In this document: positions 1-20,709 of the stretch, piece by piece
How the letters are laid out: every line of letters begins with the position of its first letter
Numbering within the stretch: the first letter of the stretch is position 1
Virus record (IMG/VR): IMGVR_UViG_3300037961_001051
Span: 1,229 to 23,966 of that record
Reading direction: 5' to 3' (one strand)
DNA from: a virus
Length of the DNA stretch: 22,738 nucleotides
Program-made: the position numbers and the translations under genes
The notes under the pieces: generated by a model
Databases searched by the model: none
Told to the model about the DNA's origin: nothing
The model's input: only the letters and a program-made list of their open reading frames with translations

Positions 1-1
1 T

Positions 2-169
2 TGTCAGACCCAGTGGCGCACAACGGCATCAGGTGTTTGTGGGCTGGACTATTCAGCTGTTGAATGGCTGTTTAGACTGTATGAAGTCGAGGATCAGCCG
101 GCCGTGCTTGAAGACTTGCAAGTCATGGAAGCTGCGGCGGTCAAGATCCTCAATAAGGAGCAGGGCTGA
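2..169 (+). CDS. Tail assembly chaperone-like protein, C-terminal part (DUF1799-like), partial
   Basis: This is an open frame from the window edge to a TGA that overlaps the tape measure start as TGATG. The visible 55 residues contain a QWR motif, then GVCGLDY and a V-E-W-L helix. This resembles the short DUF1799-type proteins encoded just upstream of tape measure genes in lambda-like phages, in the position of lambda G/T. The known role of such proteins is to bind the tape measure and deliver it for tail assembly. The start lies outside the window, so any programmed frameshift upstream cannot be judged. The family call comes from motif memory and position only. Confidence 0.6.
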   Translation, partial: CQTQWRTTASGVCGLDYSAVEWLFRLYEVEDQPAVLEDLQVMEAAAVKILNKEQG

Positions 170-1953
170 TGCAAAAGTCAGTCTTTCAAATGCTTCTGGA
201 TGTTAAAACCAGAGGCTCAAACAACATCAGACGGCTCGGCAGAGATCTGCAGGGTGTGCAGGGCAAGGCCAAAAATCTTTCGATGTCGTTTGGCCGAATG
301 GCCGGCAGCCTCAAAGGTTTTGCTGCAATCGCTGGTGTCACTGTTGGCGGTTCATTGCTTGCAGGCGTGTTTGGCTCTAGAGCAGAGCTTGAGTCACAAA
401 CACGGTCACTGCAGGTCTTGACCGGCAGCGCCGAAAAGACAAAACAGATTGTTGGTGAGATTAAAGCGTTTGGTGCTGCGACACCGTTCCAGGTTCGCGA
501 CCTAATCAATGTCACTAAAAAGCTGAAAGCGTTTGGCATCGAGACTGATTCTCTTGTTGATACAACTAAGCGTCTGGGTGACGTTGCGGGTGCGACTGGT
601 GCTGACCTTGATGGCATCGCAACTGCGTTTGGTCAAATCAGGGCTAAGGGCAAGTTTTCGCAGGAAGAAAACCTGCAGCTTTTGGAGCGTGGTGTTGACC
701 TGACGACTGAGCTGAAGAAGATGTACGGCTTGTCTGGTGACGAGCTGGCCAAGGCGATGAGCAAAGGCCAAATCAGCTTTGAGGCAGCAAACCAAGCCTT
801 GATCACGTTGACAAATCAAGGTGGGCAGTATTTTGGCGGCGCAGTCGCACAGGCAGACACCCTGAATGGCAAGCTTTCAACGCTTCAAGATGCCTTTGTG
901 ACGTTGGGCCAAAACATTGGCAAGGTGCTTGAGCCTTTGTTTAAGGGCATCCTTGACTTTGTCACGTTCTTAACTAACAAGCTCAACAGCCTATTTGAAG
1001 AGGCAGACATCAGAAATGAGGCTCTTAAAAATGTGCAAGGCGGGCTAAGCAGAGCGCAATTCTTTAGGCGTAAGGATGCCAAAGCGACGCTCGAAGCCGA
1101 AATTGAGAGAATTAGAGGCGAAAGAGGAACAGCTGCTGCTGCTGAAACCGTTCAGTTCAAGCCTGCTCTGTTGACGGGTAACACTGAAAGCAAGCTTGCG
1201 AAGGAGACAGTGCAAGCTTCAGACAGAGTTGTGAAGCTTACAAAGCAAATCAACGCTGCAAGGATTGAAGGGAACAGGCTGAAAGAGATTGATTTAGGTT
1301 ATGACCTTGCAATTCAACAGCTTCAAGAAAAAGGCCTTACTGGTAACAACCTGGAAATTGATCAAAGCAACCTTTTGACTCAATACACTCTTGACCGTCT
1401 TGCCGCAGTAAATGCCTTAGCGGATGCACAAGACAATTTGAATGACAAGACTGATAAATACAAGATCACGCTTGATCAGGTCAAAGACACGCTGGCCAAC
1501 CAAATCACAGGCGCGATTGAAGGGCTGATTGATAGCACTAAGTCTTTGGGCGAGTCGCTGTCTGGTTTGTTGAAAACATTCGCCAGCATGTTCCTGCGGT
1601 CTGGCGTGGGTTCGTTGGTTGGCAGCATCTTCAAAAGCGCCAAGGGCAACGTGTTTGCTCAAAATGGCATCGTGCCTTACGCCAAAGGCGGATACATCGG
1701 CCGGCCAACTTTGTCGCTGATGGGTGAAGCTGGCCCTGAGGCTGTGCTGCCCTTGCGTCGTGGCCGTGGTGGTCGCCTAGGTGTTGAAACCTCAGGCGGT
1801 GGTGTTGGCAGCGTGGTTGTGAATGTTGATGCGAGTGGCAGTAGCGTGCAGGGCAATGAGCCTGACGCAAACCAGCTCGGCAGAGTGATCGGCCAAGCTG
1901 TGCAGGCTGAGTTAATTAAACAGAAACGACCTGGAGGACTTCTTACCCGCTAA
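169..1953 (+). CDS. Tail tape measure protein
   Basis: The 594-aa protein sets tail length and is thought to reach the host envelope at DNA injection. Residues about 75-265 carry the tape-measure domain, with the signatures LTGSAEKTKQI, FGAATPFQV and QLLERGVDL. A Gly/Ala-rich hydrophobic stretch lies at about 45-70, helical Lys/Glu-rich sequence fills about 280-460, and the C terminus has the GEAGPEAVLPL motif typical of lambda gpH-like tape measures. At roughly 0.15 nm per residue the length predicts a tail of about 90 nm, shorter than lambda; this is an inference. It overlaps the upstream stop as TGATG and the next gene as TAATG, so translation is probably coupled. The family assignment is secure. 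Confidence 0.95.
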   Translation: MQKSVFQMLLDVKTRGSNNIRRLGRDLQGVQGKAKNLSMSFGRMAGSLKGFAAIAGVTVGGSLLAGVFGSRAELESQTRSLQVLTGSAEKTKQIVGEIKAFGAATPFQVRDLINVTKKLKAFGIETDSLVDTTKRLGDVAGATGADLDGIATAFGQIRAKGKFSQEENLQLLERGVDLTTELKKMYGLSGDELAKAMSKGQISFEAANQALITLTNQGGQYFGGAVAQADTLNGKLSTLQDAFVTLGQNIGKVLEPLFKGILDFVTFLTNKLNSLFEEADIRNEALKNVQGGLSRAQFFRRKDAKATLEAEIERIRGERGTAAAAETVQFKPALLTGNTESKLAKETVQASDRVVKLTKQINAARIEGNRLKEIDLGYDLAIQQLQEKGLTGNNLEIDQSNLLTQYTLDRLAAVNALADAQDNLNDKTDKYKITLDQVKDTLANQITGAIEGLIDSTKSLGESLSGLLKTFASMFLRSGVGSLVGSIFKSAKGNVFAQNGIVPYAKGGYIGRPTLSLMGEAGPEAVLPLRRGRGGRLGVETSGGGVGSVVVNVDASGSSVQGNEPDANQLGRVIGQAVQAELIKQKRPGGLLTR

Positions 1954-2294
1954 TGGCAACGTTTCCCTCTATTGACCCTAACTTTGGGGCGACTAAGACC
2001 AGTCAACCGACTGTGCGCAACGTGCAGTTTGGTGATGGCTACAGCCAGCGACTGAGGTACGGATTGGGAACGGACCTTAAGGTGTGGAACCTGACGTGGG
2101 AAAACATCAGCGAAGCAGACTCAGACACCATTGAAACGTTCCTTGAGGCACGCGGTGGGGCTGAGCATTTTGATTGGTCGCCACCAGACGAGACGGAAAC
2201 TTACAAGTGGATTTGCCAGCAATGGTCGAAGCAGATGACATCTGCTGGACTTAATCAGCTGACTGCAACGTTTCAGCAAGTTATTGAGCCATGA
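1953..2294 (+). CDS. Minor tail protein, lambda gpM-like
   Basis: This 113-aa protein belongs to the phage minor tail (gpM) family of the tail tip. Visible signatures are the N-terminal FPSIDPNFGATKTSQP, the central QFGDGYSQRLRYG, and a W-L-T-W segment before an acidic helix (ETFLEARGGAEHFDW). Length matches the family (about 110 aa). The gene sits directly between tape measure and gpL, exactly as in lambda, and its stop overlaps the gpL start as ATGA. In lambda, gpM joins the tip complex between the tape measure/major tail end and the L/K/I/J tip. The call is secure from motif and synteny. Confidence 0.92.
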   Translation: MATFPSIDPNFGATKTSQPTVRNVQFGDGYSQRLRYGLGTDLKVWNLTWENISEADSDTIETFLEARGGAEHFDWSPPDETETYKWICQQWSKQMTSAGLNQLTATFQQVIEP

Positions 2295-3982
2295 GCACTG
2301 CTTTTGTCGAGCTTCTCAACTCCGGCCCTTTTGCAGTCATTGAGCTGTTTGAGCTGAAGCTCTTTCAAGATCTGCACGGCTCTGATGAGGAGTATTACTT
2401 CCACGCAGGCCGCAATCGTAAGACGACCGTCCCTAGCAACGCAGACGACATCCTTGACGCCTTTTCTATTAAGTACGGCGGCACGCCATATATACCTTTG
2501 CCTGTAGAGGCATCAGGGTTTGAGTTCAACGGTGATGGCACGCTGCCCAGGCCGTCGATCCGCTTTGCCAACCTGCAGAGCCAGATGACAGCGTTGTTGT
2601 TGGGCATCAACCAAATCACCCCAGGCAACGATCTGTCTGGCGCACGGGTAACAAGGATCCGCACTCTTAGCCGTTTTCTTGACAGCGATAACTGGGAGAA
2701 CGGCGTCAACCCTTACGGAAACCCTGATTCAGGCGCTAACGCACAGTTTCCAAAAGAGGTTTACTACATCGACCGCAAGGTTTCCGAAAACCGGGACTTT
2801 GTTGAGTTTGAGTTGGTGTCGTCTTTTGACATGGGCAACACAAAAGCCCCGCGTCGTCTTGTGATGCAGAACCTGTGTCAGTGGGAGTACAAAAGCAAAG
2901 AATGTGGCTACAGCGGTTCAAATGAGTTCACAGTCAACGGCGTGACGCTTTCATCTTCTAGTGCGTCAGGTTTTGGCTACTCAACCAATCAAGAGAAGCT
3001 GACTACCGGCTCAGAGCTGACGGAAGGCAACGCGCTTGTTTCCACTAACGGTTGGTTCATCGCAAAGGTGCAAGCCGATGGCAACTTTGTAATCTACAAA
3101 AAGCCAGGTGGATCCTCAGATCATTCGGTTTGGAGGACGGGAACAGAACGTGGCACAAATACAAATGGCTATACCTTGAAAATGCAGCCTGATGGCAACC
3201 TTGTTCTTTATAACGACGACGTTGCCCGCAATGACTATGCCGGCGGCTCTGTTCTTTGGGGCACTAAGACACATGAGCTGGGGCAGATCTCCGCATTGAC
3301 TCGCCTTAGCGTCGATGGAACCGATCAGTGGTATCCGCCTGATGTACAGATTGGGCGCTCAGGCGCTTTCACTTGGGAGATCAAAGGCAGCAGCCCTTCA
3401 GCTGCAGGACAGACAACAACAGCCACGCACAACTTTGTAGATGCAGACCATGAGTTCGGCAGCCGCTCTGTCAACGTCACCTTTAACCTGACCTCGATCG
3501 CTATCCCTGCGGATCATTACTCAAAAGATCACAGCAACTACACAGGTTTTGGCTGGAACACGATCACAGGCATCACAATCAACAGTCAGACTGGTTTTTG
3601 GCGGAACAGCGAAGATTTTGTTTTGAAAATTGCTCTGACCAGCAATAATCCTTTTGCGTCAAACCATCCGACAGAAGGCACGCTGCAAGAGGCTGGCGCG
3701 GGATACAAGGTCACAGCTACTGGGTACACAACCAGGCAGCTGCGTCTTAAGGATGACGGCGTTCTTGTTCTCGAAAACTCCGATGGCAGCAACGTTGTGT
3801 GGACTTCCGACAACTCACCGATCACAACTGAGCCAGCAGTCGTCACAGGGACGACGACGCCCATTGAGGTGTCAGGTCAATGTGGCAAGCGGATTAGTGA
3901 TTGTCGCTTGCGTTTTCCCAACGGTGATGCAAACGGCGGCTTGCCATTTGGGTCGTTCCCTGCTGTCGGTCTAAATAATTGA
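2291..3982 (+). CDS. Tail tip protein, lambda gpL-like, with bulb-lectin domain inserted in the Fe-S domain
   Basis: The protein has 563 aa, more than twice lambda gpL. Residues 1 to about 190 match the gpL N-terminal domain. The C-terminal iron-sulfur domain is recognisable from four cysteines, C196, C205, C531 and C538. The spacing inside each pair (9 and 7) fits my recollection of lambda gpL, whose cysteines bind a 4Fe-4S cluster. Between C205 and C531 about 325 residues are inserted. They contain two perfect mannose-binding bulb-lectin motifs QxDxNxVxY (Q261-Y269 and Q299-Y307), each followed by a VW or LW repeat end. A third, degenerate copy lies at 487-495 (KDDGVLVLE), also followed by VVWTS. 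Residues about 331-475 form a further beta-rich region of unknown type. The protein probably sits in the tail tip and may bind surface glycans. Confidence 0.9.
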   Translation: MSTAFVELLNSGPFAVIELFELKLFQDLHGSDEEYYFHAGRNRKTTVPSNADDILDAFSIKYGGTPYIPLPVEASGFEFNGDGTLPRPSIRFANLQSQMTALLLGINQITPGNDLSGARVTRIRTLSRFLDSDNWENGVNPYGNPDSGANAQFPKEVYYIDRKVSENRDFVEFELVSSFDMGNTKAPRRLVMQNLCQWEYKSKECGYSGSNEFTVNGVTLSSSSASGFGYSTNQEKLTTGSELTEGNALVSTNGWFIAKVQADGNFVIYKKPGGSSDHSVWRTGTERGTNTNGYTLKMQPDGNLVLYNDDVARNDYAGGSVLWGTKTHELGQISALTRLSVDGTDQWYPPDVQIGRSGAFTWEIKGSSPSAAGQTTTATHNFVDADHEFGSRSVNVTFNLTSIAIPADHYSKDHSNYTGFGWNTITGITINSQTGFWRNSEDFVLKIALTSNNPFASNHPTEGTLQEAGAGYKVTATGYTTRQLRLKDDGVLVLENSDGSNVVWTSDNSPITTEPAVVTGTTTPIEVSGQCGKRISDCRLRFPNGDANGGLPFGSFPAVGLNN

Positions 3983-4302
3983 TGGACGACTGGAAAAAGG
4001 CTGTAGTGCAGCACGCTGAGGCAGAAGCACCTAAGGAGTGCTGCGGGCTGCTAGTGATGCTTGATGGTGCGGAACATTATTGGCCGTGTCAAAACTTGAG
4101 CGACGAGGATGACGCTTTCATCCTTGACCCTATGGGCTACGCAGCTGCTGAGGACACGGGCAAGGTGCTGGCAGTTGTTCATAGCCACCCTGATGCGCCT
4201 GCTTTGCCTAGTGAGCCTGATAAAAAGGCTTGCACTCAATACGGTTTGCCGTGGTTTATCTACGGCATGGGGGATCAAAGCTGGTCAAGGATTGAACCTT
4301 GA
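3982..4302 (+). CDS. JAMM/MPN metallopeptidase, lambda gpK-like N-terminal domain only
   Basis: The 106-aa protein is a complete zinc JAMM domain. The motif HSHPDAPALPSEPD gives H67, H69, S77 and D80 in the H-x-H-x7-S-x2-D pattern, and E19 in KECCGLL is the upstream glutamate. Lambda gpK joins such a domain to a C-terminal NlpC/P60 peptidase; here that domain is absent. The likely role is tail-tip assembly or processing, or cell-wall contact at entry. ATG 3982 is preferred because it overlaps the gpL stop as TGATG; the in-frame TTG at 3979 would add one residue. The gene lies between L-like and I-like genes as in lambda. Confidence 0.9.
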   Translation: MDDWKKAVVQHAEAEAPKECCGLLVMLDGAEHYWPCQNLSDEDDAFILDPMGYAAAEDTGKVLAVVHSHPDAPALPSEPDKKACTQYGLPWFIYGMGDQSWSRIEP

Positions 4303-4331: not shown

Positions 4332-4958
4332 GTGACAGCAATGCTTCGCAAAATCAGGCTGTATGGGCACCTGGCGGAGCACTGCGGTCAAAAAGTTTTT
4401 GAGGCAGTAGCAAGAACACCGGCTGAGGCAATCCGGTTTCTGCTGTGCAACTTTCCAGAGTTGCGCTCAATCATGGGCGCTGGTCATTACACCGTTGCCG
4501 TAGGCCGGCACACGTTAGAGCTGGGGCAGTCGCCAGAGCAGCTTCGTTATCCGCTAATGGCTGACGATGACATCAGGATTATTCCTGTTGTGACGGGTGC
4601 CAACATTTTTAGAAATTTGGCGTTCATCGCTCTTGGTGCTGTGTTGATCGGAACGGCGCTTGCTACTGGCGGTGTCAGTCTGGGCGCGACTGGTTTTGTT
4701 GCTGAAGCTGGGGTGGCAGGAGCTGGCCTAGGTGCAGCGGCTGGCAACATTGGCATCGGGCTGGCCCTGACAGGTGTCGCTGGCTTGTTATCGCCAACCA
4801 TTGCAGCGCCTGACATCGACAACGATCCACGCAACAACAACAGCTTTTCCGGTGTGCAAAACACCAGCAGAGAAGGCATCCCTGTCCCTGTTGCTTACGG
4901 AGAGGTGATCGTCGGTAGTGTTGTCATATCGGCAGGTCTCAACGTAGAGGGCAACTGA
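4332..4958 (+). CDS. Tail assembly protein, lambda gpI-like
   Basis: The 208-aa protein matches the lambda tail assembly protein I family. The N terminus (RKIRLYGHLAEHCG) reads as a ubiquitin-like beta-grasp segment. It is followed by DDDIRIIPVV and a long Gly/Ala-rich hydrophobic region at about 95-155, probably membrane-active. The tail contains REGIPVPVAYGEVIVGS, a strong family motif. GTG 4332 has an AAAGGG ribosome site 8 bases upstream, whereas ATG 4341 would leave 17 bases, so GTG is preferred. The stop lies one base before the gpJ-like start. In lambda, I acts with J, L and K to start tail assembly and is not in the finished virion. Confidence 0.9.
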   Translation: MTAMLRKIRLYGHLAEHCGQKVFEAVARTPAEAIRFLLCNFPELRSIMGAGHYTVAVGRHTLELGQSPEQLRYPLMADDDIRIIPVVTGANIFRNLAFIALGAVLIGTALATGGVSLGATGFVAEAGVAGAGLGAAAGNIGIGLALTGVAGLLSPTIAAPDIDNDPRNNNSFSGVQNTSREGIPVPVAYGEVIVGSVVISAGLNVEGN

Positions 4959-4959
4959 C

Positions 4960-7900
4960 ATGGGCATTAAAACGAAGCTGAACTCAAGCCAAGTTGCGAG
5001 ACTTGTTGACCTGTTAAGTGAGGGTGAGATTGAGGGGTTCCCGTCTGCAAGTGGGCTGACTCCCGGAACAACTGCTTATCATCTGGCTTCGCTCAAAGAT
5101 ACCTTTTTCAACAACACTCCTGTTTTAGATTCGACGGCAACAGTAACAAGTAGCAGCACAAAAGATGATGCGGCAATAGTTGAAAAACTGAACTTTGATA
5201 TGCGTGATGCGCGGTTTGAAAGCCGCTTAGGCAAGCAAGATCAGCTACCTCTTGAAAACATTGACGACCTTAACCAAAGCACTGTCGCCGTCAACGCTGA
5301 GGTTCTAAAGAACGGCACGATCACAACAAACACTGGCGGTGGCGGATTCTTTGATTATTTAGACGGCAGCCCCGCAACGCCGGTCACAAGGCAGATCACA
5401 GATACTGACGTAACCAGCGTTCGCTTGACGATCGGTTCGCCTGCGATGACGGTCTCAAAAGATGACGGCAGACTAAGAGGCGTCAGGATTGATTATTCAA
5501 TCGAGATTCAGTATCAGAGCGGCGGCTACAACCGCGTTGATTTTGGTGACTATGACGAGAAAAATGTTTACTTAGGCAATGGACGTTTCACGCATATTGG
5601 CTTTTCTCCTGACCTTTATCAGCGCAAACATCTGATCAATCTAGACCCAGCCAAAATACTGGCCGGGACAGCGTTCCCGGTTGACATTCGGGTGACAAGC
5701 CTGGGTAAAGAATTCAACTCAGACACGGTTGCGCAAAACGATGAGCTGATTTGGTATGACATCACCTTGAAGGTAGGCGAGAAGACGCGCTACCCAAACA
5801 GCGCCGTAGTTGGTTTGCTGTTTAACGCAGAGCAGTTTCCAAGTATTCCGCAACGTAGTTACAAGATACGCGGCATCAAGGTGCGTATCCCGCACAACGC
5901 AACTGTGCGTGCTGATGGTTCGCTTTCTTATTCAGGCACGTTTAACGGCACGCTGAAAACTACCAGAGAGTGGACAACAGATCCCGCGTTCATACTTTAC
6001 GACTTGTTGACATCGATTAGGTACGGATTGGGCTCGCAGGTCCTCACGCCAGAAGAGCGAGCAAAAGACGCTGCCAACAATTTCAATGGTGCCTCTGATG
6101 TTGCTGAAAATTTAGATATTTATAGCTTCCAAAAAGCGTCCGCTTACTGCGGCGAGCTAATTGATGGTGAGCCACGCTTCGCTTGCAACGTGTTGCTTCA
6201 GACTCAGCAGGAAGCCTTCAAGCTGATTGAAGAGATGTGCTCTGTTTTCAGGGCAATGCCTTTTTGGGAGCTCGGCGGCATTTCAGTCTCTCAGGACGCG
6301 CCTGATGTTTTTGCCTACACGTTCAACCAATCCAACGTCACGCAGGCTGGCTTTAGTTATTCCGGGTCAAGCCTAAGAAATCGACCAACATGCGTATCTG
6401 TTAAATACTTTGACAACAACCTCAGAGACTTTGCATACGAGCTGGTCGAGCTATCGCAAACGTCCTTTAAGCCAATTAAAAAATACGGCTATAACAAGCA
6501 AAACATTACGGCCTTTGCCTGCACAAGCCGAGCACAGGCGCGTCGTCTTGGCCTTTGGTTTCTGTACTCTTCGCACAACGAGACTGAGGTTTGCAGTTTT
6601 GAAACTGACATTGCTGCTGGCATTACTGTTCGCCCAGGCGACCTAATTAAGGTTGGCGATCCTGTTCGTAGTGGCAAAACCGTTGCTGGTCGCGTTACCT
6701 CAGGCTCAACGACAACAGCGGTCAAACTAGACCGCAGCGATGTTGAAATGTTTGGCACTCAAGCGCCAAGCACCTTCACGCTCAATGTCATCACTGAAGG
6801 TAGGAATGATGATGGCTCAGCCAAGACTGACCCAAGGACAGGCGCGTTGATTTATGAGGTTGAAGCTGTTGCCAATTCAACGATTGTTGGCAACACAGTT
6901 ACCCCTGGCGAAGCACTGAACACAGCGCCTGTTGCTGGGTCTGCTTTTTCTATCGGATATGACGGCTTAAGCCTCAGCCTTTGGCGTGTCCTAAGTGTTG
7001 TTGAGAATGAGGCCACTTACGAAATCACTGCACTCGCTCACGAGCGAGACAAGTTTTCTGTCATTGAAGAAACCGGCTTTACGTTTACGCCTCGCGATGT
7101 CACGCAGTTAGCAGAAAAGCCGGACCCTATTACAAACCTGCGACTGCAAGAGATTTCTTTTGAGGAAGGCGACAAGGTGCTGCAGCGTGTGGCTATCACT
7201 TGGCAGGAATCAGAACGAGCCAGTCAGTATGAAGTCGTTGTGAGGCTAGATAGTGACAATGAAGAAACGCATTTTGTTACCACGACTGGCTTTGACGTTA
7301 TGGATAGCCAAAAGGGCGTCTACAACGTCAGCGTTACTGCGATTGGCTACGGCCTGAACCCTGAGCAATCAGGCAAAAGGCGTTCTTCCCCTGTCGCCGC
7401 AAGCATTAGGGCAGAGGGTAGAACAGCAATCCCAAGCAACATTGCAAGCTTGAACATTACGCCGATTGACCAGCACAACGCTGAGCTGCACTGGCCTGAG
7501 CCGACTGATCTAGATGTCAAGATTGGTGGCACGATTGAGATTCGCCACAACCCGCGAACAACTGGCGACATTAAATGGGCGCAGTCAGAAAAAATCGTGC
7601 CTGCTGTCAACGGCAGCACGACACGCAAGATCGTGCCATTGCTGGATGGTCACTATCTCGTCAGGGCAAAAAGCTCGAACGATAAATATGCACCGTTGAC
7701 AGGCATTCCAACGGTTTTAGTTGAGCTGCCAGAGCCACAAGACCTTGAGGTTGTCCAGACCTACACCGAAAGCCCTAACTTCACCGGCACGTTTTCGCAG
7801 GCGTTCAACAGCGTCACAGAAGGCGGGATCACCCTTGAGGCTGACGGCAAAATTGATGATATTACTGACTTTGACAGCGTTACCAACATCGACTTCTTTG

Positions 7901-8523
7901 GTGATGTGGTGTCAACCGGCAGTTACATCTTTGCCAACACGCTTGACCTTGGGGCGAAGTATGACGTGGAGCTGCTGGCCAACCTGAAGATCAACACGAT
8001 TAACCCTGACGACTTCTGGGATTCGCGGTCGGCCAACATCGACACTTGGAACGATATTGACGCTGACGACCTGTCAGAAACCAACGCTGAGCTGTACTCA
8101 AGGTCTACCAATGACGATCCCAGTGGTTCGCCCACCTATGGCACTTGGGAGCCGTTTGCTAACTCCACCAAACGCGGGCGCGGGTTCCAGTTCAAAGTTG
8201 AGATGGAAACCTCTAACGACTCGCAGGATGTCGTTGTGCAGACCCTTGGCGTGTCGGTGAAGCTGCAGCGCCGGACAGAGCAGCAGCGCAACATCAGCAG
8301 CGGCACAAGTTCAAGCGGTAAGGCCGTGACTTTCCCTTCTGCCTTCTACAGCACGCCGAGCATCACGATCACGGCCACGAACATGGCAACTGGTGATTAC
8401 TTCGAGTTGAGCAGCGTTAGCAGAACAGGCTTCACCATCAAGTTTCTTGCTGCTGATGGGACTACAGTGCTTGGTAGGTCATTCGACTATCAAGCGGTCG
8501 GCCACGGCAAGGAGATCACCTGA
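4960..8523 (+). CDS. Central tail fibre / host specificity protein, lambda gpJ-like
   Basis: The 1187-aa protein is the tail-tip hub and attachment protein. It opens with a gpJ-type start (QVARLVDLLSEGEIEGF), continues through hub domains (YDLLTSIRYGLG at about residue 346) and has two fibronectin-III-like regions at about 720-805 and 821-925, marked by AITWQESERASQYEVVV and AELHWPEP. Residues beyond about 930 form a divergent beta-rich end, where gpJ normally carries receptor specificity. Length is close to lambda gpJ. The stop overlaps the next start as TGATG. Assignment is firm for the first 900 residues; the receptor is unknown. Confidence 0.93.
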   Translation: MGIKTKLNSSQVARLVDLLSEGEIEGFPSASGLTPGTTAYHLASLKDTFFNNTPVLDSTATVTSSSTKDDAAIVEKLNFDMRDARFESRLGKQDQLPLENIDDLNQSTVAVNAEVLKNGTITTNTGGGGFFDYLDGSPATPVTRQITDTDVTSVRLTIGSPAMTVSKDDGRLRGVRIDYSIEIQYQSGGYNRVDFGDYDEKNVYLGNGRFTHIGFSPDLYQRKHLINLDPAKILAGTAFPVDIRVTSLGKEFNSDTVAQNDELIWYDITLKVGEKTRYPNSAVVGLLFNAEQFPSIPQRSYKIRGIKVRIPHNATVRADGSLSYSGTFNGTLKTTREWTTDPAFILYDLLTSIRYGLGSQVLTPEERAKDAANNFNGASDVAENLDIYSFQKASAYCGELIDGEPRFACNVLLQTQQEAFKLIEEMCSVFRAMPFWELGGISVSQDAPDVFAYTFNQSNVTQAGFSYSGSSLRNRPTCVSVKYFDNNLRDFAYELVELSQTSFKPIKKYGYNKQNITAFACTSRAQARRLGLWFLYSSHNETEVCSFETDIAAGITVRPGDLIKVGDPVRSGKTVAGRVTSGSTTTAVKLDRSDVEMFGTQAPSTFTLNVITEGRNDDGSAKTDPRTGALIYEVEAVANSTIVGNTVTPGEALNTAPVAGSAFSIGYDGLSLSLWRVLSVVENEATYEITALAHERDKFSVIEETGFTFTPRDVTQLAEKPDPITNLRLQEISFEEGDKVLQRVAITWQESERASQYEVVVRLDSDNEETHFVTTTGFDVMDSQKGVYNVSVTAIGYGLNPEQSGKRRSSPVAASIRAEGRTAIPSNIASLNITPIDQHNAELHWPEPTDLDVKIGGTIEIRHNPRTTGDIKWAQSEKIVPAVNGSTTRKIVPLLDGHYLVRAKSSNDKYAPLTGIPTVLVELPEPQDLEVVQTYTESPNFTGTFSQAFNSVTEGGITLEADGKIDDITDFDSVTNIDFFGDVVSTGSYIFANTLDLGAKYDVELLANLKINTINPDDFWDSRSANIDTWNDIDADDLSETNAELYSRSTNDDPSGSPTYGTWEPFANSTKRGRGFQFKVEMETSNDSQDVVVQTLGVSVKLQRRTEQQRNISSGTSSSGKAVTFPSAFYSTPSITITATNMATGDYFELSSVSRTGFTIKFLAADGTTVLGRSFDYQAVGHGKEIT

Positions 8524-9335
8524 TGCCTCAATCCACTGATTACAGTCTCAGTAACCAAAGCGGCAGTAGCTTTCGTTCAGAGCTTAATACCATCCTGGCC
8601 GCGATTCAAACGCTTAACAGCGGGTCATCAGCGCCGAGCAATTTGGTTGCTCACATGCTGTTTTTGGATACGAGCAGCACACCGGCCGTTCTAAAGATAA
8701 GGAACGCCGCAAATGACGGGTTCATCAGCCTAGGTACAGCATCCACCAACTTTGGTCTGGTCAGTGCGTCTGGTGCGACCTTTACGGGTGACATCACGCT
8801 GAACGCTCGTTCAGATGTGCGCTTTGCTGACGCAGACAGCAGCAATTATGTGGCCTTGGAGGCTCCCGCCACAATCTCCTCTAATTACACCCTGACTCTC
8901 CCAGCGGCTGACGGCAGCGCGAACCAGGCCCTAAAGACTGACGGCTCTGGTGCTCTTGGTTTTGCCAGCTACCTGCTGTTGAGTGAAACAACGAACGGTC
9001 AAACTGTCACTGGCGGCGTTCGGGGCAACATTGTCACCATTAGCGATGGGGCCAATCTTGCTTATGACATGGATGACGGCATTAATGCACAAGTCACGCT
9101 CGGCGGGAACCGAACGTTTGACAATCCATCAAATATCACTGTTGGTCAATCTGGGTCGATATTTATCTCGCAAGATGGCACCGGGAATAGGACCTTGTCA
9201 TATGGATCGGCGTTCGACTTTGCTGGCGGGACCGCACCCACGCTATCAACCGCGGCCAACGCCGTTGACAGAATAGATTACGTCGTCCGCACTACTTCCT
9301 CTATCCACTGCAACTTTGTCGCCAACTTCTCATGA
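8523..9335 (+). CDS. Tail fibre-like structural protein
   Basis: The 270-aa protein is low in Cys and Trp and rich in Ser, Thr, Gly, Asn and short beta repeats. A segment at about 80-160 (TGDITLNARSDVRF, then SNYTLTLPAADG and ALKTDGSGALGF) is of a kind common in fibre and fibre-tip proteins of marine phages. The C-terminal third (NRTFDNPSNITVGQSGSIFISQ, then NRTLSYGSAFDFAGG) resembles a beta-helix or knob domain. It lies between the gpJ-like gene and a large adhesin, overlapping both (TGATG and ATGA). A role in the distal fibre is inferred from position and composition, not from a catalytic motif. Confidence 0.7.
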   Translation: MPQSTDYSLSNQSGSSFRSELNTILAAIQTLNSGSSAPSNLVAHMLFLDTSSTPAVLKIRNAANDGFISLGTASTNFGLVSASGATFTGDITLNARSDVRFADADSSNYVALEAPATISSNYTLTLPAADGSANQALKTDGSGALGFASYLLLSETTNGQTVTGGVRGNIVTISDGANLAYDMDDGINAQVTLGGNRTFDNPSNITVGQSGSIFISQDGTGNRTLSYGSAFDFAGGTAPTLSTAANAVDRIDYVVRTTSSIHCNFVANFS

Positions 9336-12094
9336 GCGTTTTTCATAACAACGCCCTTATCGGTTCTGGCGGTGGAGCGGCTGCAGCAGCTGCTGGGGGG
9401 GCCACAAAATCGCTCCGCTTCAATAACGATCATGGAGCGCATCTCAAGCGCACCCCGTCGTCTGCTGGCAACCGCCGTACTTTTACATTCAGCTGCTGGG
9501 TAAAACGAAGCACCCTGGGCTCATCCTTGATGCGCCGTTTTTTCTCGGCAGGTGCAACTTCAGTTAGCTCAGGCAATGTAACTTTAGCCTTTTATCAAGA
9601 CCAGTTATTTTTTCAAATTAGTTCATCCAGTAATCGCATAATTTCAAGCCAAGTTTTCCGTGACATTGCAAGTTTTTATCATATAGTCTTGGCGGTCGAC
9701 ACCACGGCGGCAACAGCTTCTGACAGGGTAAAAATATATGTCAATGGGTCTCAAGTGACTGAGTTTGGCACTGAAAACTATCCGTCGCAGAACACAGATA
9801 CTGCGGTGAATAATACAGAACAGCAACTTATAGGCTGCGGCGTAGATAGCGGGGGCACCGTTCCGGATGGTGCCTTTGATGGGTATATTGCAGATTGCTT
9901 CCTGATTGATGGCTCTGCGCTTGACCCCACATCATTTGGGGCGTATGACGACAACGGCGTCTGGCAAGCTGCAGCCTACACCGGAACATTCGGAACGAAC
10001 GGATTCCATCTGCTGGATTTTGAAAACGAGTCAACAATCGGCCACGATTCAAGCGGCAACGAAAATGATTTCACAGCATTAAATTTTTTGGCTGCACAAA
10101 ACCAATACCTTGGCGACATTACAGGGACGCAAAGGTCTGGGTTTAATTGGGTGCAAATGTTTGATGGTGATCTGAACAATGGTGCTGTACCAGCCATAAG
10201 CAGCAGCTTTACATTTTCGCCCTCTCCAACAATACCGTTCTCGACGTTGCAAGTTTATGCCTACAAGGACTCGTCTCCTGGTACGTTGAAAATTAACGGC
10301 ACTGATGTCTCATCACAGCTCCCTAACCATAACGGGATTGGTCCCAACCAGCTGACTACAATCACCGGGATAAGCTCTCCTCTTACGTCTATTCAAAACA
10401 TAAGCAACGGTTCTCTAGCAAACGTCGTTCTTGCGGGCGTTGTAATTGATGGGGAGCTGCTGTTAGATAAAGCTTCAGAAGTTGACGTTCTGTTTGATGT
10501 ACCAACGAATGGGGATCAAACTGACACAGGTGCCGGCGGAGAAGTCAGTGGGAACTACTGCACGATTAACCCTCTGTCTATTCCAAGCCAATCAGTAACA
10601 GTTTCAAACGGAAATTTAGACCATACGGGAGCTGGCACGAACGTAGCCAGAGTCGGCACTATTGCTATACCTTCTTCAGGCAAGTGGTACTGGGAAGTTA
10701 CATGCAATAAGGGCGGTAGTGGAGCTTGGTTGCTTGGAATAAACGGGGATACTATGAGCCAAGCACTACGACTTGCATATGTAAGCGATGCCCGTAAGTA
10801 CACAGACGCTGGCGGTGGGTTTTCATCTTATGGTGCGTCGTTTACATCTGGCGATGTTATTGGCGTTGCCGTTGACATGGACGCTGATACTTTGACATTT
10901 TACAAAAATGGGAGCACCCAAGGGACTGCATTTACAAGCATATCTTCCGGATATAGCAACATATTTCCTTATTTTCAAACTGAACAATCAGGCAGAGGTT
11001 TGTCGGTGAATTTTGGGCAACGTGCTTGGGCCTATTCGGCTCCCAGCAACCATAAAGCACTTTGCACAACGAACCTCCCGACCCCGACGATTGCCGATGG
11101 TTCGGCTTATTTTGACGTAGATACTTATGCTGGCACAGGCTCATCACACGAGCGTAGTGAGTTTTCTTTTAGTCCTGATTGGGTATGGATAAAATCACGG
11201 ACAAGTACAAACGGCCATAACATCTACGACGTAGTGCGTGGGGCTAATAAGTACCTTTCTAGCCATTTAAATGCCGCAGAAGGCACGGCAACAAATGAGC
11301 TAATGAGTTTTGACTCTGATGGTTTTACGTTGGGTGGTGCGGCTGGTGTTAATGGTAGTTCCAATAATTACGTTGCTTGGGCATGGGACGCCGGATCATC
11401 AACGGTCAGCAACACTGACGGCAGCATTACTTCTAGTGTCAGAGCAAATGCGTCTGCTGGGTTTTCGATTGTTACCTACACAGGATCTAGCAGCGGTTCA
11501 ACTGTAGGCCACGGATTAAATGCTGCCCCTGAATTTATTATTGGTAAGCGCAGGGACGGTACAAGTGAGTGGTCTTGTTATCACAAATCACTAGGTAATG
11601 ATAAAGCCATAATTTTGAACACTACTGCGGCTGCAGGGAGTTCTTCGACTTGGAATAGTACAACTCCATCTTCCTCAGTTGTAACGTTGGGGTCTGCACA
11701 TTCAGTCAATTTTTCATCTTATACGCACGTCTTGTACTGCTTTGCACCTGTCGCAGGCTATAGCGCGTTTGGTTCGTACACAGCAAATGGTTTAAGCGAT
11801 GGCCCCTATGTGCAGACAGGCTTCGCTGTGGCATGGCTAATGACGAAGAGGACTAATTCAACTGGGGCTTGGGAAATTCATAACTATCGCACTCCTGGTT
11901 ACAACCCACAAGATGAACGATTGGTTGCTGATAGTGCTGGTGCTGAAGCAAGCGGCAACGACGTTGATTTCTTGTCAAACGGATTCAAAATTAGAAATAC
12001 CTTTAGCGGTATGAATGGCTCAAGTGGTGACACTTACATATATCTCGCATTTGCTGAAAACTCGTTCCAAGCCAATGGCGGGCTTGCTCGTTAA
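9332..12094 (+). CDS. Large putative adhesin with LamG-like and SPRY domains
   Basis: The 920-aa protein looks like a receptor-binding virion protein. Residues about 25-210 form a LamG/concanavalin-like jelly roll (FTFSCWVKR, then VKIYVNGSQV and FDGYIADCFLIDG). Residues about 447-560 match a SPRY/B30.2 domain (GKWYWEVTC, then GVAVDMDADTLTFYKNG). The C-terminal part from about 590 shows three related beta repeats, each with a W-x-K or K-R start and a YVAWAW, VLYCFA or YIYLAFA end. A Gly/Ala-rich N terminus could fix it to the virion. Its DNA appears more AT-rich than the tail genes before it. The exact ligand cannot be read, but sugar or protein binding fits both fold types. Confidence 0.78.
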   Translation: MSVFHNNALIGSGGGAAAAAAGGATKSLRFNNDHGAHLKRTPSSAGNRRTFTFSCWVKRSTLGSSLMRRFFSAGATSVSSGNVTLAFYQDQLFFQISSSSNRIISSQVFRDIASFYHIVLAVDTTAATASDRVKIYVNGSQVTEFGTENYPSQNTDTAVNNTEQQLIGCGVDSGGTVPDGAFDGYIADCFLIDGSALDPTSFGAYDDNGVWQAAAYTGTFGTNGFHLLDFENESTIGHDSSGNENDFTALNFLAAQNQYLGDITGTQRSGFNWVQMFDGDLNNGAVPAISSSFTFSPSPTIPFSTLQVYAYKDSSPGTLKINGTDVSSQLPNHNGIGPNQLTTITGISSPLTSIQNISNGSLANVVLAGVVIDGELLLDKASEVDVLFDVPTNGDQTDTGAGGEVSGNYCTINPLSIPSQSVTVSNGNLDHTGAGTNVARVGTIAIPSSGKWYWEVTCNKGGSGAWLLGINGDTMSQALRLAYVSDARKYTDAGGGFSSYGASFTSGDVIGVAVDMDADTLTFYKNGSTQGTAFTSISSGYSNIFPYFQTEQSGRGLSVNFGQRAWAYSAPSNHKALCTTNLPTPTIADGSAYFDVDTYAGTGSSHERSEFSFSPDWVWIKSRTSTNGHNIYDVVRGANKYLSSHLNAAEGTATNELMSFDSDGFTLGGAAGVNGSSNNYVAWAWDAGSSTVSNTDGSITSSVRANASAGFSIVTYTGSSSGSTVGHGLNAAPEFIIGKRRDGTSEWSCYHKSLGNDKAIILNTTAAAGSSSTWNSTTPSSSVVTLGSAHSVNFSSYTHVLYCFAPVAGYSAFGSYTANGLSDGPYVQTGFAVAWLMTKRTNSTGAWEIHNYRTPGYNPQDERLVADSAGAEASGNDVDFLSNGFKIRNTFSGMNGSSGDTYIYLAFAENSFQANGGLAR

Positions 12095-17380: not shown

Positions 17381-18133
17381 TTGTGCGGCATCATCCAAGT
17401 GACCCTGCTGCTGACAGCGATGGGATTTGCGCTCTTGCCGTTTTTTGAGTGGTATAAACCAGACGTGCCTCATCGCATGGCTGCCATCAAGCAGCTAGAG
17501 GAGGCTATGCCAGAGCATTTGCTCAGTGAAGATGCTGAGTGGTTTCAGGCGTGGAAGGCCAGCGGCATCGACCAGGAGGTGTACTTGCCTCGATATTTCA
17601 GACAGCTTGACCTGCCCGGCGGGGCAAGAAAATGCTTCACAAGCGCGGCCAGCATGGTCGCATCTTTCTATAAGCGCGTAAACACGCAAGAACAGTATGA
17701 GGCTGTACTCAGACCTTTCGGTGACACAACCTCTGTTTACGCTCACGTCAAAGCCTTAAGCAGCTTGGGCCTGCAGGTTCGCTTTGTAGACAATGCAGAT
17801 GCAGAGGACGTGATGGAGGCCATCGACGCTGGCACTCCTGTCATGGTCGGTTGGTATCACCGAGGCAACATGCTGCGTGGTGAACCGGCTATGTGCGGCA
17901 GCGAGACAGAAATTTGCGGGCACTGGTCTGTCCTACACGGCTATTCGGGCCGTTACAGCAGTGATCCGAGTTGGCTGCTCAGCGATCCTCTGGGTCTGCC
18001 AGATATTGAGAGGGGCACGCACAACCCTGCACTTTCTGGTTATCGCGTCAGCGTGCGCCAAGCTGCATTCCATCAACGTTGGCAAGTCAATGGCCCCAGG
18101 AGCGGCTGGGCCATATTTGTCGAGGCACAATAG
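17381..18133 (+). CDS. C39-like cysteine peptidase with N-terminal membrane anchor, probable endolysin
   Basis: The 250-aa protein has a papain-like C39 peptidase core. C85 lies in GGARKCFTSAASMV, H181 in CGHWSVLHGY and D202 in LLSDPLG, giving a Cys-His-Asp set. Residues 2-22 (CGIIQVTLLLTAMGFALLPFF) form one hydrophobic segment that could be a signal anchor. The tail phage K-like gene lacks its usual cysteine peptidase, so this enzyme may supply cell-wall cleavage at lysis. The start is TTG 17381, 3 bases after the upstream stop; ATG 17420 would remove most of the hydrophobic segment. Peptidoglycan as substrate is inferred from neighbours. Confidence 0.75.
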   Translation: MCGIIQVTLLLTAMGFALLPFFEWYKPDVPHRMAAIKQLEEAMPEHLLSEDAEWFQAWKASGIDQEVYLPRYFRQLDLPGGARKCFTSAASMVASFYKRVNTQEQYEAVLRPFGDTTSVYAHVKALSSLGLQVRFVDNADAEDVMEAIDAGTPVMVGWYHRGNMLRGEPAMCGSETEICGHWSVLHGYSGRYSSDPSWLLSDPLGLPDIERGTHNPALSGYRVSVRQAAFHQRWQVNGPRSGWAIFVEAQ

Positions 18134-18153: not shown

Positions 18154-18669
18154 ATGACGGTTCTGTGTGACTGGGAGATCAAGGCTCGGTGTCAAAAAAG
18201 CCAGATGGTCGTCCCGTTTGACGCAGAGTTGCTAAACCCAGCCAGCCTGGACTTGCGACTGGGTCTGTATCTGATGGTTGAAAACATCTGTGACCCTGAG
18301 CTGATCCGCGTTGACATTTCAGGCAGAACAAAGGATGAGCCGTTCATGCTGCAGCCCGGCGAGTTTTGCTTGGCTGAAACACTTGAGTTGTTCAACCTGC
18401 CTGAGGACATCTGCAGCACTTTTCTACTCAAAAGCTCACGCGCTAGAGAAGGCTACGATCACGCTCTCGCTGGTTTTGCTGATCCGGGATGGTCAAATTC
18501 GCGATTGACCGTCGAGTTGAAAAACAACCGCTTGCACCATGCACTTCCCCTGTACCCCGGCCTAAAAATTGGTCAGATGGTGTTTCACAGAATGACGCCG
18601 CCGCTGCGCAGCTATCGCGAGACAGGCCATTACAACAACCACTTGACAGTCATGCCTTCTGTGGCATGA
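18154..18669 (+). CDS. dcd: dCTP deaminase
   Basis: The 171-aa protein belongs to the dCTP deaminase/dUTPase trimer family. Visible signatures are NPASLDLRLG (28-37), LLKSSRAREG (91-100, substrate phosphate site), ADPGWSNSRLTVEL (109-122, with E121 at the place of the catalytic Glu of E. coli Dcd) and a C-terminal PGLKIGQMVF. Family knowledge: dCTP is deaminated to dUTP, which feeds dTMP synthesis for phage DNA replication. It lies 20 bases after the lysin gene on the same strand. The AH(R)ID part of the E. coli motif is altered to AGFAD, so substrate preference is not fully certain. Confidence 0.9.
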   Translation: MTVLCDWEIKARCQKSQMVVPFDAELLNPASLDLRLGLYLMVENICDPELIRVDISGRTKDEPFMLQPGEFCLAETLELFNLPEDICSTFLLKSSRAREGYDHALAGFADPGWSNSRLTVELKNNRLHHALPLYPGLKIGQMVFHRMTPPLRSYRETGHYNNHLTVMPSVA

Positions 18670-19444: not shown

Positions 19445-19624
19445 TTAGTTGAAAAACTTGGAGATGATGATCTTGAGAGCTTGGTTTTGGTTGTAGCTGC
19501 GCGACTTCATGAAGTGACGCAACTTGCCAGCCAACTGGTCATCAAGCCGCACATTGAACTTGTTGTTGCGGCGTGCTGAGTCGGCTTTAGCTTGCCATTC
19601 ACGTTTCTTGTCCTCGTCAGGCAT
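19445..19624 (-). CDS. Ribbon-helix-helix DNA-binding protein, 59 aa
   Basis: A Lys/Asp-rich N terminus is followed by one short strand and two helices in the Arc/CopG pattern: KFNVRLDDQLAGKLRHFMK, then a turn SYNQ and QALKIIISKFF. This fold dimerises and inserts a two-stranded ribbon into the DNA major groove. It starts inside the end of the ERF gene (ATGCCTGA overlap) and ends 3 bases before the SSB-like gene, so it is firmly in the recombination operon and may regulate it. The target site is unknown. It could also assist recombination as an accessory factor. Confidence 0.75.
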   Translation of the reverse strand: MPDEDKKREWQAKADSARRNNKFNVRLDDQLAGKLRHFMKSRSYNQNQALKIIISKFFN

Positions 19625-20306
19625 TTCTTGCTAGCCAGTCATTGATCCAAGCCTGATGCTTACGCATGTTGATTGCGTCCTTAGACAAGCGTCCCTCACC
19701 GAGCTTGAAGGCAAAACAAAATGACTCTGCCAGTTTTTCTTTTTTGCCTTGGCTTAGCTCCTTGATTGCATTGATTAGCGCGTCCTGTTCGGGTGTCTCA
19801 AGCTTGATGTCCTCTGGAGGGATCCCTGGAATGGTTTTAGTTTGTTGATGCTCAACCTTTGCTGCAGGCTTTGAAGCTGCATCTGAATCTGCATCGTTAT
19901 CGACGATGCCAACACACAGGCCAAGGACAGACAAAAGCCCGTAGCGTCGGGAGTAGGTAACGGCTTTGCCCCATTCCTGGGTTGCGTTGAGCGGATTGCC
20001 TTTTCTGTCGACACCTTCCTGAATTTTTATAGGAGTGACAGCGGTTAAGTGCTCACCGCTTATGTGCAGCAAAGTGGTTCTTAGGCCAGGCTGGCCGTTA
20101 ATGTCTTCTGGCAGTTGTGACACCACAAGACCGCTGGCTCTTAAGGCTGGGCCAATGTTTGAGAGCACGCCAGGCAGGTTGGCAAACCCGCCGTGGAAGC
20201 TTTCAGCGTTGTCGTGAATCGTGGGCACTGCCTCATGAAATTTGATCAGCGCAGCTGCCAAATTAGTCAAGGGCTGTGACGGTGATGATGGCACCGAGGA
20301 AGTCAT
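19617..20306 (-). CDS. erf: ERF-family single-strand annealing protein
   Basis: The 229-aa protein matches the ERF (essential recombination function) family typified by phage P22. Residues about 12-145 contain NLAAALIKFHEAVPTI, SNIGPALRASGLVVSQ, LLHISGEHLTAVTPIK and WGKAVTYSRRYGLLSVLGL, then VDNDADSD. The last is the characteristic Y-x-R-R-Y to acidic pattern. Such proteins anneal complementary single strands in phage recombination and genome end joining. A flexible Ala/Lys/Pro region and a helical tail follow. It overlaps the RusA-like gene by 44 bases and the ribbon-helix-helix gene by 8. Confidence 0.92.
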   Translation of the reverse strand: MTSSVPSSPSQPLTNLAAALIKFHEAVPTIHDNAESFHGGFANLPGVLSNIGPALRASGLVVSQLPEDINGQPGLRTTLLHISGEHLTAVTPIKIQEGVDRKGNPLNATQEWGKAVTYSRRYGLLSVLGLCVGIVDNDADSDAASKPAAKVEHQQTKTIPGIPPEDIKLETPEQDALINAIKELSQGKKEKLAESFCFAFKLGEGRLSKDAINMRKHQAWINDWLARNA

Positions 20307-20709
20307 CTGTTTGATACCTTTTGGTTGCGTAGATGGAAACGATCTGGGCGTCCGAATAGAGAAGCACGCGGGCTACAGCATCGGAAATGCTATCGCCTGC
20401 CGATCTAATTAGCTTGTCCAGATCGGGGGTTTTGGTGTGATGCACCGGCGCAGAATCTTTTAGCTTACCGGCGTTTTTGCCTGTGCCGTAATGCGACAAC
20501 GGGCGAGGGAAGACAAACTCACAACGCAGCGATACTGCGGCGTGAATGTCCCAATCCTCAGGCTTGTGACGATGTGCTGCAGCAGCAACGTCACTGCGCC
20601 AGCTGGCAAGAGATTCCGCGTTGTTAGCAACAACACGGCTGCCATAAGCTTTCATTGAGCCCTGCGGAACAGGTGTTCCTAGGACAGCAAACGTGACGCT
20701 AGTTTGCAT
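20263..20709 (-). CDS. rusA: RusA-family Holliday junction resolvase
   Basis: The 148-aa protein carries the RusA start GTPVPQGSMKAY, then VFPRPLSHYGTGK and the core TPDLDKLIRSAGDSIS with D96 and D98. YSDAQIVSI follows, with D120 at the place of the third catalytic Asp of E. coli RusA. KRY completes the pattern; the usual Lys after the DxD pair appears to be Arg102. RusA dimers cut four-way junctions, which fits an operon with ERF and an exonuclease. It overlaps the ERF start by 44 bases and its own start lies inside the end of the 50-aa gene. Confidence 0.92.
   Translation of the reverse strand: MQTSVTFAVLGTPVPQGSMKAYGSRVVANNAESLASWRSDVAAAAHRHKPEDWDIHAAVSLRCEFVFPRPLSHYGTGKNAGKLKDSAPVHHTKTPDLDKLIRSAGDSISDAVARVLLYSDAQIVSIYATKRYQTDDFLGAIITVTALD

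Follow-up and report, generated by a model that had tools for sequence, protein, structure and literature searches.

A tail-tip hub protein encoded in a DNA fragment of a bacterial virus is, with near certainty, a gpL protein carrying an insert with the bulb-lectin fold. The putative Fe-S domain of the protein is split in two halves by this inserted cassette, which in the predicted structure includes the whole of a bulb lectin (beta-prism II) of the monomeric type. A glycan adhesin of the tail tip is the favoured role for the cassette, with a probability of about two in three. The source record is a linear 23,966-base IMG/VR fragment, and the window is the whole stretch of it that was analysed (22,738 bases). 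Coordinates of the tail genes and of the parts of the hub are given in Table 1.

Table 1. Tail genes of the window and parts of the gpL-like hub (window positions; residues are those of the hub protein unless a length is given)
Feature	Position	Strand	Residues or length	Basis
gpH-like tape measure protein	169..1953	+		TMP_3 2e-22
gpM-like distal tail protein	1953..2294	+	113 aa	Phage_min_tail 1.5e-27
gpL-like tail-tip hub protein, with insert	2291..3982	+	563 aa	
HDI domain	2291..2830	+	~1-180	PF05100; structural alignment to lambda gpL 8iyk_L
Putative Fe-S domain, first half (C196, C205)	2846..2926	+	186-212	conservation in gpL alignment
Bulb-lectin repeats I and II	2990..3274	+	~234-328	VIA-align to 1xd5
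Canonical site I, QADGNFVIY	3071..3097	+	261-269	motif search
Canonical site II, QPDGNLVLY	3185..3211	+	299-307	motif search
Inner domain, beta-rich with one helix	3275..3730	+	~329-480	pLDDT ~84-97
Bulb-lectin repeat III	3731..3826	+	~481-512	B_lectin and VIA-align
Degenerate site III, KDDGVLVLE	3749..3775	+	487-495	motif comparison
Putative Fe-S domain, second half (C531, C538)	3875..3925	+	529-545	conservation in gpL alignment
gpK-like JAB protein, JAB domain only	3982..4302 (ATG at 3982)	+		Prok-JAB 3.2e-18
gpI-like tail assembly protein	4332..4958	+		phrog_32 2.3e-41
gpJ-like central fibre protein	4960..8523	+		phrog_31 6.6e-147

The hub gene sits in the lambda tail order H-M-L-K-I-J, and its ORF overlaps M by ATGA at the 5' end (2291-2294) and K by TGATG at the 3' end (3980-3984). 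The protein had been called gpL-like in an earlier note made from the letters of the DNA, and this identity is borne out by profile searches with PF05100 Phage_tail_L (E = 3.9e-38, 131.3 bits, cut-off 25) and with the NCBI equivalog TIGR01600 phage_tail_L (139.7 bits, cut-off 70.75). A frame error or gene fusion as the source of the ORF was dropped, because the ORF is continuous, overlaps both neighbours as described and is matched in length by dozens of relatives. The lectin carrier is also separate from the gpJ-like protein, as the same note had proposed, the latter being encoded by its own gene downstream. No extra domain was seen in the gpM-like protein, of which Phage_min_tail covers residues 9-111.

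Several other genes of the window can be assigned. The protein encoded at 3982-4302 shows no sign of the second, NlpC-type part that lambda gpK has. The J-like protein has its nearest cultured counterparts in Prochlorococcus phages (34% identity), and H_lectin weakly matches its C-terminal end (residues 1122-1179; E 0.01, under the cut-off). The gene at 9332-12094, after J, encodes a large structural protein in which SPRY (1.1e-15) and DUF7483 (1e-102) domains are recognised; it probably serves in decoration or as another host-contact protein. A candidate C39/C70-like papain-fold peptidase (Peptidase_C70 20.4 bits, cut-off 19) is encoded at 17381-18133. The usual phage replication/recombination set is represented by dCTP deaminase-like (18154-18669), ERF-type (19617-20306, minus strand) and RusA-type (20263-20709, minus strand) genes.

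The HDI domain of the hub aligns in AlphaFold2 model 1 to lambda gpL (8iyk_L) with Z 16.1 over 160 residues at 3.2 A (model 1..197; VIA-align). Exactly four cysteines are found in the protein, arranged as C-x8-C ... C-x6-C with the within-pair spacing of lambda. For comparison the window protein was aligned to 77 further gpL proteins, taken from viral contigs and from genomes of bacteria; 42 of the 77 have no large insert. All four cysteines, recognised earlier as those kept from lambda gpL-type proteins, are present in 78 of the 78: C196, C531 and C538 are aligned throughout, down to about 30% identity, and C205 is aligned in 75, the remaining three (L395, L397, L411) having it shifted by a small insertion. 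The cysteine flanks, W-x-Y...ECGY and CGKR...C..RF, are kept across the alignment as well.

The gap between the cysteine pairs, put at about 325 residues in the earlier note, has 325 residues, and the coordinates of that note are exact, codon C196 starting at base 2876 and codon C538 ending at base 3904. The corresponding distance is 297-334 residues in lectin-bearing members and 20-33 residues in insert-free gpL proteins (8 in two of them). In the alignment to the insert-free protein of Synechococcus phage S-H1, the insertion point falls cleanly between ECGYSGS and QCGKR. AlphaFold2 model 1, built with 46 close relatives, has a mean pLDDT of 72.6 and poorly defined Fe-S halves; model 2, built with 78 diverse gpL proteins, has a mean of 83.3, with residues 180-204 still at about 40. 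Residues 13..555 of model 2 align to 17..225 of lambda gpL (8iyk_L; Z 17.2, 196 residues), with an rmsd of 6.0 A, low-confidence stretches omitted, and with the C196/C205 region being the one of low pLDDT; the match of the same model to T1 gpL (9l9p_J) spans 12..555. Support for the proposed meeting of the four cysteines in space comes from homology.

The bulb-lectin fold is best known from plants and lectin-like bacteriocins. Its assignment in the hub is based on the fold match of the predicted insert, for which pLDDT is about 85-97 over most of the length in both models. The insert model aligns to gastrodianin (1xd5) over 111 of 111 residues at an rmsd of 1.6-1.7 A (Z 16.9, model 234..512; VIA-align), the bulb-lectin match by Foldseek has a TM of 0.85 (target length), and further structural matches include snowdrop agglutinin with mannose, LlpA, and pyocin L1 with D-rhamnose. 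The lectin proper, of about 111-127 residues, is interrupted between repeats II and III by about 150 residues. As would be expected of a split domain, the scores with B_lectin (PF01453, cut-off 32.4 bits) are marginal, amounting to 30.8 bits for the whole protein and 32.7 bits for the insert alone. The profile does match the region 240-330, where a match had been predicted, and a second B_lectin stretch (G000:4956-5051, profile 48-80) coincides with repeat III; a B_lectin match at E<=0.01 is present in 44 of 46 relatives. The idea that the whole of 206-530 folds as a beta-prism lectin holds for the complete bulb-lectin fold inside it, but about half of the insert is another domain.

Both perfect QxDxNxVxY motifs reported earlier are confirmed, against an expectation of about 1.7e-4 per protein of the same composition, and they are the sole ones in all six frames of the window. 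Among bulb lectins with this motif, those of plants bind D-mannose and pyocin L1 binds D-rhamnose. At site III the motif is found in plant bulb lectins and is frequently missing from bacterial ones. The degenerate site III is no bar to membership in the bulb lectins, since the motifs of LlpA bacteriocins, too, can often hardly be made out (PMC6240691).

The inner domain nested in the lectin exceeds it in size. Sequence searches of Pfam, PHROGs, NCBIfam and PDB sequences gave no match of note for this domain. In the fetched loci it occurs in gpL ORFs only, or in cut or broken pieces of these, and it accompanies the lectin in every locus. Mean identity is 0.50 for the inner domain and 0.58-0.60 for the lectin.

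The state of the sugar sites varies across the 36 lectin-bearing relatives. Twenty-four of them have canonical motifs at both site I and site II, and 27 have at least one of the two; nine keep the cassette without any canonical site (L039, L043, L045, L049; L054; L395, L397, L400, L411), so motif-based glycan binding is not a need of all members. Site III is canonical in none of the 36, and a sister clade has QxDGNxVxS at this position. Each motif codon of sites I and II shows synonymous variants among the 24, a set chosen for intact motifs, which indicates that the sites are old and not recent copies. The ten motif residues are unchanged in this set by definition, and the other lectin columns average 1.1 bits of amino-acid entropy. 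Judged from the sequences, the pattern agrees with a lectin that in some lineages takes a different sugar or none, for which the LlpA bacteriocins offer a parallel.

Close relatives of the hub gene number dozens in IMG/VR, and none was found in the genome collection. The N-terminal part of the hub matches widely among 50,697 phage records, best in marine cyanophages; the insert gave no match in these records at E<=0.01 (tblastn). The photosystem gene PF00124, taken as a host marker, is absent from seven related records, a result that is uninformative on the host. In a tree built by a quick method from the N-terminal domain only (109 rows), a branch with SH-aLRT 99 sets the 36 rows with the lectin apart from the rest, and the cassette changes once; the C-terminal architectures taken together require 17 changes.

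Neighbouring gpL proteins include the standard form, the 8-residue-gap form and some proteins of about 182-220 residues that have no Fe-S domain, including those of Prochlorococcus phage MED4-184 and relatives. The Fe-S-less proteins run from the HDI domain directly to an FPSVGTF-type end, and the N-terminal tree calls for three or more changes to place them (L377-L394, L396, L399, L402, L407, L412, L413, L415, L423, L424, L430-L433, L435-L439, L441, L442, L450; L129:4001-4573). Other inserts between the cysteine pairs are coiled-coil-like in L398, L409, L425 and S-CBS4 (L130:3962-5359), in which two alanine-rich coiled-coil-like stretches flank a small beta-rich middle; beta repeats are found in L404 and L440, and another kind of insert in L447. 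A second insertion place lies between the fourth cysteine and LPFGSFPG, and is occupied by about 230-280 beta-repeat-like residues in L403, L408, L410, L428, L445 and L453.

Insertions in the HDI part are seen in two proteobacterial gpL ORFs of 421-428 aa (G098:C102:52848-54038 and G397:C33:216002-217171), in which a break in the match to PF05100, at profile position ~92-94, marks the insertion. The gpL of Marine virus AG-345-A17 (L127:4001-4993), which has no Fe-S domain, also carries an HDI insert, with the pattern HPLRI...YYCSTHGNSMG. A cupredoxin-like reading of this insert, suggested by the pattern, was not supported, as Pfam gave no such match. PF05100 matches occur in 18 of 398 proteobacterial genomes, and a large gap between the cysteine pairs was found in none of the ORFs concerned.

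Hubs with a proposed sugar-binding domain at the same place have been described. The RcGTA hub (gp13, Rcc01696) has an attachment domain at 1-142 and an ion-binding domain at 143-167 and 250-263, whose two halves enclose a domain of oligosaccharide-binding type (168-249) (PMC7296036), and in the hub of roseophage R4C the Fe-S halves (142-161, 244-266) enclose an insert at 162-243 (PMC10276861). The sugar binding of these domains was inferred from the fold (PMC7296036, PMC10276861). Both hubs resemble the present one in being gpL-type, in the HDI-like attachment domain, in the four-cysteine Fe-S domain divided by the inserted domain, and in having a separate J/megatron protein. Their insert, however, is of about 82 residues and of an oligosaccharide-binding fold, whereas the present one has about 300 residues and consists of a bulb lectin with another domain set into it. 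In the full-protein model the fold of the insert is beta-prism II over the full lectin domain, differing from that of the RcGTA/R4C insert, and RcGTA (6tba) and R4C (8gtc) align to the model over the HDI part only (9..186 and 9..183, respectively).

Lambda gpL (8iyk_L) and T1 gpL (9l9p_J) share with the hub the family, gene position, HDI fold and within-pair cysteine spacing, but lambda gpL has 22 residues between the pairs (C182-C205) instead of 325. The upper baseplate protein gp50 of JBD30 has four cysteines in two pairs (147, 156, 238, 245), a gap widened to 81 residues and a putative metal site, with no lectin described (PMC11445458). Gastrodianin (1xd5), snowdrop agglutinin (1msa), LlpA and pyocin L1 have the same beta-prism II fold with QxDxNxVxY at sites I and II; the window lectin differs from them in its split between repeats II and III, in its degenerate site III and in its location within a tail protein. 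An auxiliary carbohydrate-binding domain is similarly inserted in a tail-tip core protein in the evolved Dits and Tals, which carry CBMs (PMC7291167), but here the carrier is gpL and the Dit-like M (113 aa) is not enlarged.

The tip of lambda contains three gpL, and on its opening the 4Fe-4S domain rotates rigidly outward (PMC11101478). The Fe-S domain lies on the outer surface. The present protein is the hub of a lambda-like siphovirus tail tip, and with three gpL copies, as in lambda, three lectins with six canonical sites would by analogy be placed around the outside of the cone, close to where the DNA is injected. The lectins would hold host surface glycans weakly and reversibly, the ligand being mannose-like, such as D-mannose, D-rhamnose or another sugar. 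This hold would orient the tip and help the central fibre to reach its receptor, and the Fe-S domain would be a rigid socket tolerating different cassettes. Such placement and role are supported by the precedent of the RcGTA/R4C hubs and of the evolved Dits and Tals with CBMs, and weakened by the inner domain, which is larger than the lectin and may be the functional part. An improbable reading takes the 4Fe-4S domain of gpL as a general socket for the exchange of host-contact cassettes, on which glycan binding by a mounted lectin could help to set or hold the open state and so join in the triggering of DNA release, beyond adhesion; the outward rotation of the lambda domain on opening is the reason for which such binding could hold that state.

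The inner domain is at the centre of a rather unlikely alternative, in which the lectin is a mere carrier, a rigid arm, and the inner domain contacts the host via protein or glycan. The size of this domain, its confident prediction and its constant company with the lectin in the fetched loci agree with such a division of labour, as does the retention of both domains in lineages with dead sugar motifs. Its higher variability (0.50 vs 0.58-0.60) is what would be expected of a contact surface, but may equally mean weak constraint, and the fact that 24 of the 36 members maintain two canonical motifs, whose codons turn over synonymously, argues for a lectin that is more than an arm. In two or more separate parts of the lectin clade the motifs are gone but the fold remains, which points in a different direction, to a cassette that is structural or needed in assembly (packing on gpJ/gpM, tip shielding) and whose motifs are remnants without present sugar function. 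Relatives without the Fe-S domain or with the 8-residue gap, which indicate that the insert is not generally needed for the tail, are counted on the same side. This explanation is distinctly unlikely: the ten residues of sites I and II are constant in the 24 members (the set chosen for intact motifs) and other columns vary, and very different cassettes are found at the same place in relatives, which is ill-suited to a fixed packing role.

A defunct Fe-S site, with the cysteines as relics in what is not a Fe-S protein, is very improbable. The cysteine region is poorly predicted, the whole Fe-S domain is lost in some relatives, and lambda-type homologues without the cluster are mentioned (PMC13243795). 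Against relics stand the invariance of C196, C531 and C538, the presence of the second cysteine in 78 of 78 proteins, the kept flanks, and the lack of any other cysteine in the window protein. The adhesin reading remains the preferred one.

The arrangement had been thought undescribed. A proposed sugar-binding insert between Fe-S halves was already known (RcGTA in 2020, R4C in 2023), and what appears new is the type of lectin and the nesting. Within the searchable literature, no earlier description seems to exist of an insert with this fold, of this size, and with another domain nested in it. The bulb-lectin version was not found in the isolated phages or genomes searched, and no paper describing a phage tail-tip protein that carries a bulb lectin was found in a search that largely missed the subscription literature. 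Earlier database entries may have the same architecture, e.g., BFVD A0A218MK99 (minor tail protein L, 522 aa).

The functions of the gpL iron-sulfur cluster are still to be characterized (PMC10721106), and a putative cluster that tolerates interruptions of 8 to >330 residues suggests a simple stabilising role. The hub adds the bulb-lectin fold to the domains mounted by siphophages on the tail-tip hub. Among related phages, the gpL loop between the cysteine pairs gains and loses unrelated cassettes, and the members with intact sugar sites, with dead sites, with other cassettes and with no Fe-S domain form a natural series for comparison.
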